The translations under genes and the position numbers were made by a program. This document shows positions 41,008 through 54,249 of a stretch of DNA of 55,409 nucleotides, piece by piece; position 1 is the first letter of the stretch; each line of letters starts with the position of its first letter. This DNA is from Caldimicrobium sp. (GTDB lineage Bacteria; Desulfobacterota; Thermodesulfobacteria; Thermodesulfobacteriales; Thermodesulfobacteriaceae), in contig WYEG01000016.1 in NCBI GenBank assembly GCA_009903935.1, positions 1-55,409 on the forward strand. Reading direction: 5' to 3'. Under the pieces are notes generated by a model. That model saw only the letters and a program-made list of their open reading frames with translations. It ran no database searches and was not told where the DNA came from.

Positions 41008-42126
41008 TTAATCGGCGCTCCTTCTTAAAAAGGTGGGAATGTCAAGTATGTCTTCTATCGGCTCATCACTCAAAGACCTTTTAAGCTTTTCCTCCCTTCT
41101 TTTTCGCCCCTCTTCAATGGGCATAATCTTATCATCCTTTACCTTTTCACCCACCTTCTCAATACCGGTTCCGATTACCGTAACCCTAAGGAGGTCCTCC
41201 ATAGACTCATCGTAAACTATGCCATAAAAGACCTTTGCTTCGGGATGAACTTCCTTAAGGATGGTCGAGGTAATAATCTGGGTCTCATGAAGGGTAAAGG
41301 TTTCAGGATGAACGGTGATATTGAGGAGAACACCCCGAGCCCCAGCCAAAGATATATCCTCAAGCAGAGGGCTTGAAACCGCCATGTTTACCGCAAGCTC
41401 AGCCCTATCCTCACCCCTTGCCTCACCCATTCCCATCAGCGCTACTCCTCCGCTTTCCGTCATAACCGCTTTCACATCCGCAAAGTCAAGATTAATATAG
41501 CCGGGGGAAAGCACTAAGTCAGAGATGCCCTTCACTGCATAATATAATACATCATCTGCCCTCTTGAACATCTCATAAAGCTTTTCTTGAGGGGAGCCAA
41601 GCGTCAAAAGCCTATCGTTAGGGATCACAATTAAAGTATCAACAAACTTTTTCAACTCTTCAAGCCCCTCTTCTGCAATCCTTTGCCGCACCTTCCCTTC
41701 AAAGGTAAAGGGTTTGGTGACGACTGCCACCGTTAGAATCTCCATTTCCTTGCAGATCCTTGCTATAACTGGAGCTGCCCCTGTTCCTGTGCCACCACCC
41801 ATTCCGGCAGCGATAAAAACCATGTCCGCATCCCTCAAACAGTCCCTAATCTCCCTTTCGCTCTCTTCGCAAGCCCTTCTTCCAATCTCAGGTTTTCCAC
41901 CGGCTCCAAGCCCTCGGGTTAGGTTCTTTCCAAGATGGACCTTAATGGGTGCTGGATTAAGAGAAAGAACTTTGTAATCTGTGTTTGCTGAAATAAACTC
42001 CACTCCACTTATTCCCTTTTTTATCATATGAGCAACTGCGTTCCCTCCAGCACCACCGACGCCTATCACCTTGATGATAGGTTGAAGCCTTATTTCTTCA
42101 TCTACCATCTCAAAGGCTAAACCCAT
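41008..42126 (-). CDS. ftsZ: Cell division GTPase FtsZ
   Basis: FtsZ polymerises at midcell to build the Z-ring. The 372-residue protein has [32 protein letters not shown], the tubulin signature [27 protein letters not shown]-like IVIPNDRLL and the T7-loop region [10 protein letters not shown]. The conserved C-terminal peptide [11 protein letters not shown] that binds FtsA/ZipA is intact. AAGGAGG is three bases from the first ATG. It lies after ftsA as in most dcw clusters. Confidence 0.98.
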
Positions 42127-42147
42127 CTTCCTTCCTCCTTTAGAATT

Positions 42148-43356
42148 TTAAAATCCTTTAATCCACTCCTTGAGCTTCTGTAAAATCCCTTTCCCCTTAG
42201 ATGTTTTAATTTCTTCGAGTTGATAGTTTTGAAAGGCATAAACAAGCATTCCGACCGCTGTGGCAAATTGAGGATGATTTATCTCCTCTCCAAGCCCTTT
42301 TAGCTTAACAGGATAGCCAATCCTCGTCGGAAGGTCTAAAATCTGGTCTGTCAGATAGATTAGACCAGGTAGAAGGGCTGAACCTCCGGTTAAGACCGCA
42401 CCGCCTGTCAAAAGACTTTTATCCACATTCTTGGAAATATTCTGGTCTACCAGCTCCAGTATTTCCTTCATCCTTAGCTCTAATATTTCAGCAAGAACCC
42501 TCCTGCTTATCCTTCTTGAAGGTCTCGCCCCAACCCCTGGGACCTCAACTTCTTCTTGCTCATCAACAAGCTCTCTAAGGCAAACCCCTTTCTCTATCTT
42601 GATTCGTTCCGCCTCCGTTTTAGTGGTGCGAAGTCCGATGGCTAAGTCGTTCGTTAAGTTTTCACCGCCTACAGGTATTGAGCCTACATACTTAAGGACA
42701 TATTCCTGGATAACCGCAAAGTCTGTAGTTCCACCACCAAGGTCTATGATAAGTACCCCAAGGTCTTTTTCTTCTGGCGTTAAAACAGCCTCTGCAGAGG
42801 CTAACCCTTGATAGAGGACAGCCGAAACCTCGATCCCTAAGTTTTCGAAACAGCGAAGAAGGTTTTGCACCTGAGAGCGCTGGGCAGTGATCAACTGCAC
42901 ATGAGCCTCAAGCCTTACCCCAGACATCCCAATGGGCTGCTGAACCCCCCTTAAATTGTCAACCACAAACTCCTGAGGGATCACATGGAGTATCATCTGA
43001 TCCTGAGGAAGGTCTATGGATTGAGCTGCTTGAATAACCTCGTCAACATCCTCAGGAGTTACCTCCCGATTTTTTAAAACTACAACACCCATACCAGTCC
43101 AGGTCTTCACATGGCTTCCGGCAATGCTTGCCAGCACCACCTGCGGGGTCTGTTTAGCCTGGACTAAAGCCTTTTCGATAGCCTGTTTGATGCTTGAAGT
43201 TGCCTCTTCAAGGTTGACAATCGTCCCCTTTTTCAAACCGCTTGAAGGCACAAAACCTATACCTGTTACCCACTGCTCATTCCCTTTAATCTCCCCTACA
43301 AGGGCGCAGACCTTGGTTGTCCCAACATCAACCACTAAATAAGCACCACCGCTCAT
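42148..43356 (-). CDS. ftsA: Cell division protein FtsA
   Basis: FtsA is the actin-like tether of FtsZ to the membrane. The 402-residue protein has the phosphate-1 loop VVDVGTTKVCALVGE, domain 1C region (about 85-160), IIDLGGGTTDFAVI, ILTGGSALLPGL, and a C-terminal amphipathic helix ILQKLKEWIKGF that can insert in the membrane. It follows ftsQ and precedes ftsZ, the standard arrangement. In E. coli FtsA also recruits FtsN/FtsQLB toward FtsWI, which matters given the altered FtsI homologue in this cluster. Confidence 0.97.
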   Translation of the reverse strand: MSGGAYLVVDVGTTKVCALVGEIKGNEQWVTGIGFVPSSGLKKGTIVNLEEATSSIKQAIEKALVQAKQTPQVVLASIAGSHVKTWTGMGVVVLKNREVTPEDVDEVIQAAQSIDLPQDQMILHVIPQEFVVDNLRGVQQPIGMSGVRLEAHVQLITAQRSQVQNLLRCFENLGIEVSAVLYQGLASAEAVLTPEEKDLGVLIIDLGGGTTDFAVIQEYVLKYVGSIPVGGENLTNDLAIGLRTTKTEAERIKIEKGVCLRELVDEQEEVEVPGVGARPSRRISRRVLAEILELRMKEILELVDQNISKNVDKSLLTGGAVLTGGSALLPGLIYLTDQILDLPTRIGYPVKLKGLGEEINHPQFATAVGMLVYAFQNYQLEEIKTSKGKGILQKLKEWIKGF

Positions 43357-43367
43357 TTAAACCACCC

Positions 43368-44114
43368 CTAAATACTTCTGTATTTTACCAAAGCTCGACC
43401 AAATGGATAATCAAGTCTAATCAATTCTACCCGGTCTTCCAAGTGGTTATCATATATGTAGGTCATGATCCTGTCAAGATAGGAATAAAGCGTAAATAAT
43501 TCGTTAGCAGTTGTAAGTGGTAAATAGATAGTTATATGACTTTTGGTGTTTAGAACGATCTTATCCTTTGTCAAAAGGATCTTCTGCAGATTTTCATACA
43601 CGGGTAGATACTTCTTATTCTGTTTTAGCCAGGCTAAAAAATTGAAAAAGATATCTTTATTCTTTTCATCTTCCATAATCACATAAGGGTAGTATAAGAT
43701 GTCATTTGGATTAGCTTCAGATAAGATAACACCTTTACGGTCTATAAGATAACCTTTATTGTTCTTAACTAAGATGGCAAGGGGTGACCTCTCTTTAACC
43801 TGCACTTCAAGGGTCGAAGGAAGTTGTCTTCTGAGCATAACATCTTCAATTAGATGATGTTTTTTTAACCTTTCTCTCAATTGGGCTAAGTCTAAACGAT
43901 ATAGTATCTCCCCACCCTTTAAATCAAGCATCCTTAAAATGTCTTCCTTGCTAACCTTAACATTTCCATAGACTTTTATCTCTTTAAGCACAAAAAGCCG
44001 AGTAAAATATAGGGCATAGAGCAAAAGCCCAGCAAGCACTATTCCAAGCAAGCTAAAAGTAAGGGCTAAAAATAGTTTTTTCTTTGTTTGCCAAAGTTCT
44101 TTTACATACTGCAT
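43368..44114 (-). CDS. ftsQ: Cell division protein FtsQ/DivIB
   Basis: FtsQ is a bitopic septal protein that, with FtsL and FtsB, controls FtsWI. The 248-residue protein has a short cytoplasmic start, one membrane helix (about 15-37) and a POTRA domain beginning LFVLKEIKVYGNVKVSKEDILRM. The FtsQ beta domain follows, with PLAILVKNNKGYLIDRKGVIL. It overlaps murB by 13 bases. Length and layout are normal, so the FtsQ scaffold is retained even though the ftsI gene here is reduced. Confidence 0.92.
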   Translation of the reverse strand: MQYVKELWQTKKKLFLALTFSLLGIVLAGLLLYALYFTRLFVLKEIKVYGNVKVSKEDILRMLDLKGGEILYRLDLAQLRERLKKHHLIEDVMLRRQLPSTLEVQVKERSPLAILVKNNKGYLIDRKGVILSEANPNDILYYPYVIMEDEKNKDIFFNFLAWLKQNKKYLPVYENLQKILLTKDKIVLNTKSHITIYLPLTTANELFTLYSYLDRIMTYIYDNHLEDRVELIRLDYPFGRALVKYRSI

Positions 44115-46406: not shown

Positions 46407-47480
46407 TTATCTCCTTTCAACTAAAGCTTCCATCTCAGCAATTGCTCGCTCTAAGCCTTGAGGGTCAAAAAACTTTCTCATCGCTCTTCCCATTTTAACC
46501 CTAAGTTCCTTTTGAGAAAGGGCAGACCTCAAAAGGCTTAAGGCTCTCTCCGGTGTAGCTTCGCTTTGCCTTAGCATAAAGGCGCAGCCAGCTTCAACCA
46601 ACGCCTTTGCGTTTTTCTCTTGATGGTTGTGCGTAGCATAAGGAAAGGGTATAAAAAGGGCAGGTATCGCAAGGGCGCAAAGCTCAGCGATGGTGCTTGC
46701 CCCAGCTCGGCTTAGCACAAAATCTGCCTCGCTGTAAACAGATCCCATATCATCGATAAAAGGCAAAATCTTAACCCTCCCGCCGAAGGCTTCTTCATTA
46801 AACCTTTTCTTTACCCTTTCATAATCATCAAGCCCAGTCTGCCAGATAACCCTTAGATTTGGGAACTCTTCAAGAAGCCTTGGCAAGACTTCTAAAGAAA
46901 GCTCGTTTATAAACCTTGCCCCAAGGCTACCCCCCAAGATGAGAAGACAAACATCTTCTTTCTTGTCCTCTTTTTTCTTAAAAAGAGACCTTCGGACAAA
47001 ATTCCCGCTAAAAACTACCTTATCCTTCGGGAAATAATCTTTGCTCTCAGGGAAGGAGATGAACACCCTGTCAACGAAACGGGAAAGAAGCTTGTTTGCC
47101 ACGCCAGGGATAGCGTTCTGCTCATGTAGCCCAAGCCTTTTCCCAAGTAGCTTCCCAGCTAAAACGACGGGTATAGAAACATAACCCCCTTCGGCAAAGA
47201 TAATCTGAGGGTTAAGGTGTTTAATAAGCTGTAAAGACCGTAAAAAGGCAAGACCAAGTTTAAAAAGGGCAATTATTTTTCTTGGCAAAGACCTTCCGAC
47301 AAAGCCTTCAACCTCAAGATGATAAACCGGAAAGGGCTTATCTTTAAGAATTCTCTTCTCTATAGGGCGAGAGCCGGCTACAAAAACAACCTCCCTTCCC
47401 TTTTCAAGAAGGGCTTCAGCCAAGGCAAGCCCAGGCATGATGTGCCCCCCAGTTCCTCCGGCAACAACCATCCATCTCAA
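46407..47480 (-). CDS. murG: Lipid II synthase MurG
   Basis: MurG adds GlcNAc to lipid I at the inner face of the membrane. The 357-residue protein has VVAGGTGGHIMPGLALAEAL, FAEGGYVSIPVVLAGKLLG, LHEQNAIPGVANKLLSRF, LILGGSLGARFINE, DDMGSVYSEADFVLSRAGASTIAEL and the GT-B closing PYATHNHQEKNAKALVE. The TTG start at 47480 overlaps murD's stop by 4 bases and has a GGAG ten bases upstream; an ATG at 47471 is the alternative. ftsW usually lies between murD and murG; here there is no space for it. Confidence 0.96.
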   Translation of the reverse strand: MRWMVVAGGTGGHIMPGLALAEALLEKGREVVFVAGSRPIEKRILKDKPFPVYHLEVEGFVGRSLPRKIIALFKLGLAFLRSLQLIKHLNPQIIFAEGGYVSIPVVLAGKLLGKRLGLHEQNAIPGVANKLLSRFVDRVFISFPESKDYFPKDKVVFSGNFVRRSLFKKKEDKKEDVCLLILGGSLGARFINELSLEVLPRLLEEFPNLRVIWQTGLDDYERVKKRFNEEAFGGRVKILPFIDDMGSVYSEADFVLSRAGASTIAELCALAIPALFIPFPYATHNHQEKNAKALVEAGCAFMLRQSEATPERALSLLRSALSQKELRVKMGRAMRKFFDPQGLERAIAEMEALVERR

Positions 47481-51374: not shown

Positions 51375-52841
51375 TTAGCCTTTAATCTCCGATAAAAGCC
51401 TCTTTACTACCTCTCGGTCAGAAAAAGGGATCCTTTTCCCCTGCACCTCTTGGTAATCCTCATGCCCCTTCCCTGCTATAAGGAGTACATCCCCAGCCCT
51501 TAGCATTTCAAGGGCAGACTTGATAGCCTCCTCCCTATCGACCCACACATAACAGGGCTTTATTCCCGTTAGTCCTTTTTTTATGTCTTCGATAATCATC
51601 TTTGGGTCTTCAAACCTTGGGTTGTCTGAGGTTAGGATGATAAGGTCAGAAAGTTCTTCAGCAACCTTGCCCATAAGTGGTCTTTTCCCGGCATCCCGAT
51701 TTCCCCCACAACCAAAAAGAACGATTAGCCTATTTCTTTGAAGAGGAGCTAAGCTCTCTAAAGCAGACCTTAAGGCGTCAGGTGTATGAGCATAGTCAAC
51801 AAACACATAGGCTCCATCCTTCTCACCAACGAGCTCAAGCCTACCCGGTGGATTGGTAAGGTTTGGTAAAGCTTTCACAAGGTCATCCACAGGAAAACCA
51901 AGGGCATAGAGAACCCCCAAGGCAACCCCAAGATTTTTAGCTTGAAAATCGCCAACAAGCCTTGTCTTCACATTATAAGTCTTTCCAGCTATTTCCATAG
52001 TTAGCTCAAGGAAGGGCGTTCTTCGAATTAAGGCTACTCGGAAAAAGTCATCGTTTACAGAGATAAGTCGTAACGCTGGTCGAGAAGTCTTTAGCTCCTT
52101 AAAGAGCCTTCTTCCGTATTCTGTCTCAAAGGAGATTATAGCTACCCCATCCTCCTTAAGATACTTTGTGAAGAGCTTTTTCTTTGCTTGAAAATAGGAT
52201 TCCATGTCTCCGTGGTAGTCAAGGTGGTCCCTTGAAAGGTTGGTAAACCCGCAAGCTGAGAAGTTTAGCCCAAAGATCCTATCTTGGTCCAAAGCATGGG
52301 AAGAAACCTCAAGGGCAACAAGCTTTATCCCCAAGTCTTTTGCTTTTTTTAAAAAAGGAAAAAGCACAAAGCTTGAGGGCGTTGTCTCCCGTGATGGCAA
52401 AACCTCCCCAACATCGTAATAGATGCTCCCAATGTAGCCGCTTTTTACTCCAAGGGCAGAGCTTAAGGCTTTTATAAAAAAGGTAGATGAAGTCTTTCCA
52501 TTTGTGCCCGTTATCCCAACCAGAGTGATCGAGTTTTGAGGATGGTCATAAAAGCGGGAAAGGAGCTTTCCTAAGGTTTCCTTAAAATCTTTAAGCCTAA
52601 TCTGAGGGGCATAAAGGTCTAAGTCAATGCTATCTTCCTGAATGATAAGTTTTGCCCCTCTTTTGATGGCTTCCGGTATGAATTCTTTTCCGTTTAGCTT
52701 TGTGCCCCGCCTTGCAACAAAGATATATCCCTTTTTTACGCTTTGCGAATGGTCAGAAATTCCTGTTATCTCCTCATCCCAGTTTACCATATAATCTTCC
52801 AAAATCTCATCTCTCGACAAAAGGTCCTTTAGCCGTTTCAT
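51375..52841 (-). CDS. murE: UDP-MurNAc-L-Ala-D-Glu:mDAP ligase
   Basis: MurE adds the third residue of the stem peptide. The 488-residue protein has GISDHSQSVKKGYIFVARRGTKLNG, the ATP loop GITGTNGKTSSTFFIKAL, ETTPSSFVLF, EVSSHALDQDR, FTNLSRDHLDYHGDMESYF and VDYAHTPDALRSALESL. The substrate motif is LTSDNPRFEDP; DNPR is the meso-diaminopimelate type (Lys types have D-D/N-P-x). This predicts Gram-negative-style mDAP peptidoglycan, consistent with mpl. The start overlaps the stop of the FtsI-like gene by 4 bases. Confidence 0.97.
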   Translation of the reverse strand: MKRLKDLLSRDEILEDYMVNWDEEITGISDHSQSVKKGYIFVARRGTKLNGKEFIPEAIKRGAKLIIQEDSIDLDLYAPQIRLKDFKETLGKLLSRFYDHPQNSITLVGITGTNGKTSSTFFIKALSSALGVKSGYIGSIYYDVGEVLPSRETTPSSFVLFPFLKKAKDLGIKLVALEVSSHALDQDRIFGLNFSACGFTNLSRDHLDYHGDMESYFQAKKKLFTKYLKEDGVAIISFETEYGRRLFKELKTSRPALRLISVNDDFFRVALIRRTPFLELTMEIAGKTYNVKTRLVGDFQAKNLGVALGVLYALGFPVDDLVKALPNLTNPPGRLELVGEKDGAYVFVDYAHTPDALRSALESLAPLQRNRLIVLFGCGGNRDAGKRPLMGKVAEELSDLIILTSDNPRFEDPKMIIEDIKKGLTGIKPCYVWVDREEAIKSALEMLRAGDVLLIAGKGHEDYQEVQGKRIPFSDREVVKRLLSEIKG

Positions 52842-53848
52842 CTCAAGACGCCGCTATCCTTAAAAAGGGGTAAAAGGTTACGGGGCTCGACCCCGTTTCT
52901 AACAACCAAGATAACCCGCTCCCTTCCCGATAGGAGATGGATAGATTTTTCTTGCGAGGGAAGAACTAAGATTTCTTCCTTTGCTTCTTGAGAGGAAGAA
53001 CCTGAAGATTTTATGGTTGCCTCTTTTATGGTTGCCTCTTCAGCCCCAAACCTTGGCAAAACCGTCAACCTTGTGTTCTCTCCGTTTATCCTTCTTAGCT
53101 CAGCCTGCACCAAATGAAGAGGTGTTATCCTAAGATACTCTCCATCCTTTTTAACCTCTTGCTTTCCAAATTCCCATTCAAGGGTTGAAAATTCATAAGA
53201 AGGAAGAAGGTAGGGTGGAAGAAGGAAAGTTTTCTCAAAAAAGGGGGTGGTAAAGAGAGAATAGAAAGCGAGCAACTCTCCGTTTCTCTTAGCAACAAGG
53301 ATTTCTTCTAAATCTTTTGTTTTTCTCCCTAAGTTTGATATCCTTTTTATTGTGTCAAGCGAAAGGGAAACCTGGAGGCTTTTCCCTTGCTTTAGACTAT
53401 CATCAAAAGCCTTTTCCAAGCCTGCTACCCCATCTTGATTGCTAACTCTCCCAACCAAAGCTTCTAAACCTGGATAGATAACCTTTCTTTCAAAGCTCCA
53501 TTCCACGAAGACATTATCTTCCCGTTTTAAAAGTTCTGCTTCCTCTTGGGTTAAGGAATCGGAAAGAAGGAAAACTCCCTTCTCAGGTAGGTTTACCCCT
53601 TGGGCAAGATACTTTCGCACCACTGGGGAAAGGTCATCCCCTATCATCGCCTTTCCTTTAATAAGGAGATAGGCTCGGTAATGGTCTCGGGAGATAACTA
53701 AGGGGTTCCCTTCGCGGTCAAGGATGTAGCCTCTTTTAGTTAGAACCCTCTCAATGGGGCTACTCTTTACCGTTGTAATATATAAAATTATAAAAACAAA
53801 ACAACAAAAAATGCACACCCAAGGGAATAGCCTTCTTCCCCTTTTCAT
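52838..53848 (-). CDS. FtsI-like protein lacking the transpeptidase catalytic motifs
   Basis: This 336-residue protein occupies the ftsI position between ftsL and murE. It has one N-terminal membrane helix (about 7-27) and the class B PBP start RGYILDREGNPLVISRD (39-55). The pedestal ending is VGRVSNQDGVAGLEKAFDDS (132-151), followed by LSLDTIKRI and a GELLAFYS stretch matching the usual GEILAMAS strand. ITPLHLVQAELRRINGEN (241-258) matches vTPLQla-x-Ayaa-x-aNgG, but the ~150-residue stretch normally before it is cut to about 40 residues. No active-site SxxK in context, SxN or KTG is found; an SQEK at 298-301 lies in the wrong place. FtsI is normally 550-600 residues. Overlaps of 1 and 4 bases with neighbours argue it is a maintained, non-catalytic division protein, not a decaying gene. 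Confidence 0.8.
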   Translation of the reverse strand: MKRGRRLFPWVCIFCCFVFIILYITTVKSSPIERVLTKRGYILDREGNPLVISRDHYRAYLLIKGKAMIGDDLSPVVRKYLAQGVNLPEKGVFLLSDSLTQEEAELLKREDNVFVEWSFERKVIYPGLEALVGRVSNQDGVAGLEKAFDDSLKQGKSLQVSLSLDTIKRISNLGRKTKDLEEILVAKRNGELLAFYSLFTTPFFEKTFLLPPYLLPSYEFSTLEWEFGKQEVKKDGEYLRITPLHLVQAELRRINGENTRLTVLPRFGAEEATIKEATIKSSGSSSQEAKEEILVLPSQEKSIHLLSGRERVILVVRNGVEPRNLLPLFKDSGVLR

Positions 53849-54249
53849 CAGGGCACCCTTATGATATCCTTTTCTGTTGGTGGTCTAAGCCCAAGCTTTT
53901 TAGCCTTTTCTTCAAGCATCTCCTTTGAGGTTAACCTTGTTAGTTCTGAAGTTAGATAAACGTTCTCTTGAGAAAGCTTATTCTTTTCTACCCTTACCAT
54001 GAAGTATTGATAAAGTTTGTGGGCAAAGAAGACGGATACAACCAGAAAAAGAACGGTTAAAAAAAGGAGCGCGCCCTTTTCTATATAATCAATCAGAACC
54101 TCTCGTAAGCTTTCTTCCCCCTTTTCTTCTGAGCGGGCTTTCGGTTTTGAGACGGTTGGTTTAAGCATCTCTCTACTTTCTCGAGAGGGGCGCAAATTTT
54201 CTTTCATAAAAGAGCCACCAGGTTTTACTGTGTATACCTTTCCGGCCAT
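53848..54249 (-). CDS. ftsL: Cell division protein FtsL-like
   Basis: A 133-residue bitopic protein: a long charged cytoplasmic start (1-58), a membrane helix (about 59-77, ALLFLTVLFLVVSVFFA), and a periplasmic coiled coil (about 84-115, with KNKLSQENVYLTSELTRLTS). The tail EEKAKKLGLRPPTEKDIIRVP is the classic FtsL end (A-x-x-x-L-G-x-x-x-P). GAGAGGG precedes the ATG. It lies between rsmH and the FtsI-like gene. The cytoplasmic part is longer than in E. coli FtsL (about 120 aa overall). Confidence 0.85.
   Translation of the reverse strand: MAGKVYTVKPGGSFMKENLRPSRESREMLKPTVSKPKARSEEKGEESLREVLIDYIEKGALLFLTVLFLVVSVFFAHKLYQYFMVRVEKNKLSQENVYLTSELTRLTSKEMLEEKAKKLGLRPPTEKDIIRVP

Follow-up and report, generated by a model that had tools for sequence, protein, structure and literature searches.

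One account holds FtsW and FtsI to be universally essential for making the septal wall (PMC10693644). In Escherichia coli, mutations at FtsI R210/K211 and in the FtsW loop ECL4 alter FtsW activation, and FtsL has been proposed to act on FtsI (PMC8078798). A catalytically dead PBP2B supports division in Bacillus subtilis, but this protein is a point mutant made in the laboratory, and PBP3 covers for its catalysis (PMC5656894). The vegetative septum of Clostridioides difficile is made by PBP1 without a canonical FtsWI pair (PMC10693644, PMC12713402). According to the accessible text of one further report, ftsW is absent from four genomes of Desulfobulbaceae/cable bacteria (sulfate reducers and cable bacteria) that otherwise keep the dcw cluster; FtsI is treated there as an ordinary divisome member, and a loss of its catalysis goes unmentioned in that text (PMC7873302). 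Searches of an open-access library turned up no account of an FtsI that is dead in nature, which is weak evidence of novelty.

The locus considered here lies in a 55,409-nucleotide stretch of Caldimicrobium sp. (contig WYEG01000016.1; hereafter, the window), whose dcw cluster runs mraZ, rsmH, ftsL, a short ftsI, murE, murF, mraY, murD, murG, murC, murB, ftsQ, ftsA, and ftsZ. The short gene, pseudo-ftsI (52838..53848, minus strand), encodes 336 amino acids from an ATG start. It occupies the ftsI slot between ftsL (53848..54249, minus strand; 133 aa, identified by its position and by matches to PF04977 and TIGR02209 below the cut-off) and murE (51375..52841, minus strand), which was matched in each of the 41 genomes examined from the order. 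ATGA junctions link pseudo-ftsI to both neighbors: it shares 1 nt with ftsL and 4 with murE. As in the PBP2B mutant, a class B penicillin-binding protein (PBP) would be needed structurally, independent of catalysis, but the loss seen here is natural and old, covers a whole order and beyond, and comes with the absence of FtsW. The likeness to C. difficile is a vegetative septum made without the canonical FtsWI pair; the difference is that the SEDS/bPBP pair of the C. difficile dcw cluster, SpoVE/SpoVD, is active and used in sporulation, with no degenerate FtsI in the slot.

Pseudo-FtsI resembles FtsI/PBP3 in its dcw position, its single N-terminal membrane helix, its RGxIxDR and pedestal residues, and its overall fold. 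Unlike FtsI/PBP3, it lacks SxxK, SxN, and KTG, an FtsW partner, and the segment aligned with R210/K211, and its transpeptidase domain is about half the size. A sequence-only reading of the window had described an intact 336-residue open reading frame (ORF) overlapping both neighbors and carrying a membrane anchor, RGYILDREG, and TPLHLVQAE. All of these are present: the anchor is a helix predicted at residues 7-27 (53768..53830, minus strand) in the AlphaFold2 (AF2) model, and the two motifs fall at residues 39-47 and about 242-250, respectively. The pedestal (residues about 38-157; 53378..53737, minus strand) is without the segment that aligns with E. coli FtsI 202-215, where R210/K211 lie. 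The transpeptidase domain survives as a remnant (residues about 158-336; 52841..53377, minus strand) that keeps beta strands and the TPLHLVQAE helix and lacks the SxxK/SxN region and KTG. When the protein is aligned to FtsI of E. coli and to 65 catalytic relatives, every SxxK, SxN, and KTG position holds a gap or the wrong residue, which bears out the claim of the same reading that the slot holds an FtsI homolog stripped of its catalytic motifs.

That reading had proposed a profile search and a structure prediction, and both agree with it. The Pfam scan returned a weak fragment of PF03717 (PBP dimerization domain) at residues 38-62 (E 0.002, below the cut-off) and no match to PF00905 (transpeptidase). 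The score against TIGR03423 (PBP2/MrdA) is 11.6 bits versus a cut-off of 455, which places the protein outside PBP2, and a comparison with solved structures by sequence alone gave no significant match. The AF2 model (pLDDT 82, pTM 0.71), computed from the window protein together with twelve relatives, has the PBP pedestal and core fold with the SxxK, SxN, and KTG regions missing; strands at 180-197 and 290-318 are retained besides helix 7-27, the pedestal, and the TPLHLVQAE helix. Foldseek matches the model to class B PBPs, for the most part crystal structures of FtsI/PBP3, at E 1e-12 to 1e-10, with a TM-score of about 0.5 normalized by query length and an rmsd of about 10 A. The alignment covers both the pedestal and the transpeptidase core, the latter interrupted by long gaps. 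The match to PBP3 structures and the alignment with longer forms establish class B PBP homology despite the sub-threshold Pfam fragment, and pseudo-FtsI is a true ftsI descendant turned pseudoenzyme.

The cluster had also been taken to be a working one. The other divisome genes are there, including ftsQ, ftsA, and ftsZ (41008..44114, minus strand; the C-terminal DIPTFLRR tail of FtsZ is kept), but ftsW, a point that the sequence-only reading overlooked, is gone from both cluster and genome. Its usual site is a 4-nt overlap of murD and murG (47477..47480, minus strand). From a phylum-wide sample of genomes we extracted the dcw regions surrounding mraY, rsmH, or murE; FtsI was scorable in 104 clusters, a few genomes whose clusters are dispersed or truncated being left out. 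All 39 FtsW-less clusters have an FtsI without any of the three motifs, while 64 of the 65 FtsW-bearing clusters have all three, the remaining one carrying KTA instead of KTG. Sampling is uneven: 20 of the 39 FtsW-less clusters come from the order of the window, and in one of the 39 (locus L125, genome G040) the stretch stops before murD, and FtsW absence rests on the genome search. No dead form contains PGSxxK or K(T/S)G(T/S). The FtsW-less clusters belong to families that we number f1, f2, f3, f17, f20, f27, f31, f56, f57, f63, f66, and f67. When mapped on a 103-taxon tree inferred from six other dcw proteins, the joint loss of FtsW and FtsI catalysis takes at least three changes, each required by well-supported branches: in a large group with the order of the window, in f20, and in f27 with f56. 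An IQ-TREE analysis of 40 taxa arrives at this count as well. A single FtsW-less clade is disfavored by an AU test (p = 0.026), with moderate support given that the test was run after tree inspection and under a simple model.

The dead forms did not lose their residues evenly. RG..DR is kept in 67-87% of them, the R of R.YP in 90%, and the G and E of G.EG.E in 72-77%; at the positions corresponding to E. coli FtsI 206-215, R210 and K211 included, 30-35 of the 39 have a gap, the window protein being one of them. Loss on the FtsW side with the rest kept fits a protein that may still contact other divisome proteins after the loss of FtsW. Two observations count against such a scaffold. The four f20 proteins retain the residues aligned with the R210/K211 segment, and in f27 and f56 the FtsI pedestal is almost wholly gone; a pedestal scaffold is therefore not needed in every FtsW-less lineage.

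The sequence-only reading had suggested looking for a second full-length ftsI, and the genome has none: its PF00905 matches are only PBP2, PBP1A, and a DacA-like protein. Nor does ftsW lie elsewhere in this genome, where PF01098 matches one SEDS gene, which adjoins PBP2. The inventory is thus one class B PBP (PBP2), one SEDS protein (RodA), one PBP1A, and one short gene with GT51 as its sole match, with MreB on another contig and mreC upstream of PBP2. PBP2 scores 617 against TIGR03423 and carries PGSTFK, SCD, and KTGT; judged by these motifs and by HTDLAF in RodA, both enzymes look catalytically intact. Across the family, where the PF00905 matches are of these same three kinds only, there is one SEDS gene per genome (split over two contigs in one draft) and, judged by match number and score, one PBP2-type class B PBP. 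The SEDS/PBP2 set is the same in the remaining two families of the order, whose extra weak PF00905 traces fall inside the dead FtsI itself. SEDS proteins score higher with the RodA model than with the FtsW model in ten sampled lineages and in the genome of the window, and the SEDS gene is adjacent to PBP2 in 22 loci. Pseudo-FtsI accordingly has no cognate FtsW in its genome, where only RodA is present.

Because FtsW and FtsI catalysis are gone, the septal wall must come from other synthases. We infer that pseudo-FtsI acts as a scaffold in a divisome without FtsWI and that the septum is built by RodA-PBP2, PBP1A, or both, a reading to which we give a probability of about 0.62. In this lineage the glycosyltransferase FtsW disappeared jointly with FtsI catalysis, leaving a membrane-anchored periplasmic pedestal and a collapsed transpeptidase core, and the protein would have been kept as its structural divisome role outlived the enzyme complex. 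That role would most likely be to bind FtsL and FtsQ and to mark the septal site; binding is suggested by the retained pedestal residues and by the position in the operon. Septal peptidoglycan would come from the remaining synthases, most likely from a single RodA-PBP2 pair serving both elongation and division, with PBP1A helping. A more specific version, which we advance tentatively and at somewhat less than even odds, is that several lineages of one phylum use a single RodA-PBP2 for elongation and division, with the dead FtsI as an adaptor that passes the FtsQ/FtsL signal to it.

The nearest competitor keeps the scaffold and assigns the septum mainly to a class A PBP, PBP1A, with RodA-PBP2 remaining an elongation complex. 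It finds precedent in C. difficile, where PBP1 carries out septation without canonical FtsWI (PMC10693644), and this genome and most of its relatives do contain one PBP1A and a short GT51-only gene; PBP1A is a serious candidate for the septal synthase where it is present. MreB and MreC, moreover, make a dedicated elongasome plausible. Against it stands at least one genome of the same family (G026) without a GT51 domain or PBP1A match, in which RodA-PBP2 may be the sole recognized peptidoglycan polymerase; that assembly is an estimated 99% complete, but it is a draft of about 80 contigs in which a gap is possible. On balance we regard a septum built mainly by PBP1A as unlikely, at roughly one chance in a few.

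The same short form in relatives had been named as a further check, and 22 of the 30 family genomes, in three genera, carry a short ftsI homolog of about 290-350 aa in the same slot. They include single-contig assemblies and the named records Thermodesulfobacterium hveragerdense, T. thermophilum, T. hydrogeniphilum, T. geofontis, and Caldimicrobium thiodismutans. Elsewhere among the examined genera and families of the order, the slot holds forms of 379-392, 449-474, and 522 aa that lack the catalytic motifs too, with a C-terminal PASTA domain in those longer dead forms that were scanned. The missing catalytic stretch, read from the window as one deletion, is by this comparison of sequences instead the end point of gradual, order-wide erosion.

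Such shrinkage, from 522 to about 290-350 aa, would also be expected of a decaying relic that does little as a protein and is kept mainly by translational coupling of ftsL, ftsI, and murE. The ATGA overlaps with both neighbors, the low identity of short forms to the window protein between genera (26-35%), and the near-total pedestal loss in f27 and f56 are compatible with such decay. The remaining evidence argues for a maintained protein. An alignment of 13 short forms, which are about 30% identical to the window protein, has 25 invariant columns, including the pedestal residues R39, G40, D44, R45, R121, G133, G140, G143, E145, and K146; the AF2 fold is well predicted; and the gene was retained after at least three independent losses of FtsW. 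In six species pairs, dN/dS of the dead gene is 0.10, 0.24, 0.29, 0.16, 0.39, and 0.11, close to what neighboring genes show in these pairs. Four of the six have a synonymous divergence of about 1 or above, and the absolute values are reliable for the f20 pairs only. As judged from these substitution rates, the dead gene is under purifying selection, as the sequence-only reading had supposed. The stops, frameshifts, and relaxed selection of an ordinary pseudogene are not what the gene displays, with no stop codon in the 22 family homologs and dN/dS of 0.10-0.39. We therefore consider a relic improbable. That an assembly or sequencing error removed about 200 codons, a concern raised with the original observation and favored by the draft state of the contig, is refuted by the relatives, whose short ORFs recur in 22 genomes, single-contig assemblies and named isolates included, with lengths that differ in a phylogenetic series.

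Whole families with MreB, FtsZ, FtsA, FtsQ, and FtsL thus lack both septal enzymes, a state reached at least three times independently, and most keep a dead FtsI. Septum construction in these heat-loving sulfur bacteria must proceed without the FtsW-FtsI pair, usually regarded as near-universal, which suggests that growth and division can both be handled by one SEDS-bPBP pair or by a class A PBP. The structural and enzymatic roles of FtsI are here separated in nature, and FtsI function beyond cross-linking becomes directly testable. We predict that FtsI-directed beta-lactams would find no division target in these organisms.

Several further features of these genomes were recorded. Many dead FtsI proteins keep the PASTA domain (L115-L126), which is lost in the genus of the window and two sister genera (the window and L128-L134). 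Two cysteines (alignment columns 263 and 288) are common to twelve relatives among L128-L134 and other short forms, and the window protein has neither, a paired absence that suggests a disulfide lost as a unit. RodA-model scores are 250-297 bits in the family of the window and its sister family versus 352-438 in other FtsW-less lineages (loci noted here are L159, L059, and L319:6021-7121); RodA has changed more where FtsI is most eroded. One protein listed by PF00905 (G127:C33) was set aside as a class B PBP candidate, as its sequence looks like a class D beta-lactamase.

In the ftsW slot between murD and murG, f27 and f56, the lineages with the smallest FtsI remnants, carry a conserved ORF of about 262 aa (L229:10585-11379, L234:10692-11483, L235:11107-11892, and L302). 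Its many hydrophobic stretches probably span the membrane. The one copy scanned has no Pfam match, and the idea that this ORF is a degenerate FtsW is unsupported, with an HHalign probability of 1.6%, the same as that of an MraY control. Finally, in families f4, f39, f65, and f72, a divergent mraY outside the normal dcw cluster adjoins an ORF of roughly 700-1200 aa that matches MurG (L239, L240, L268, L293, and L298).
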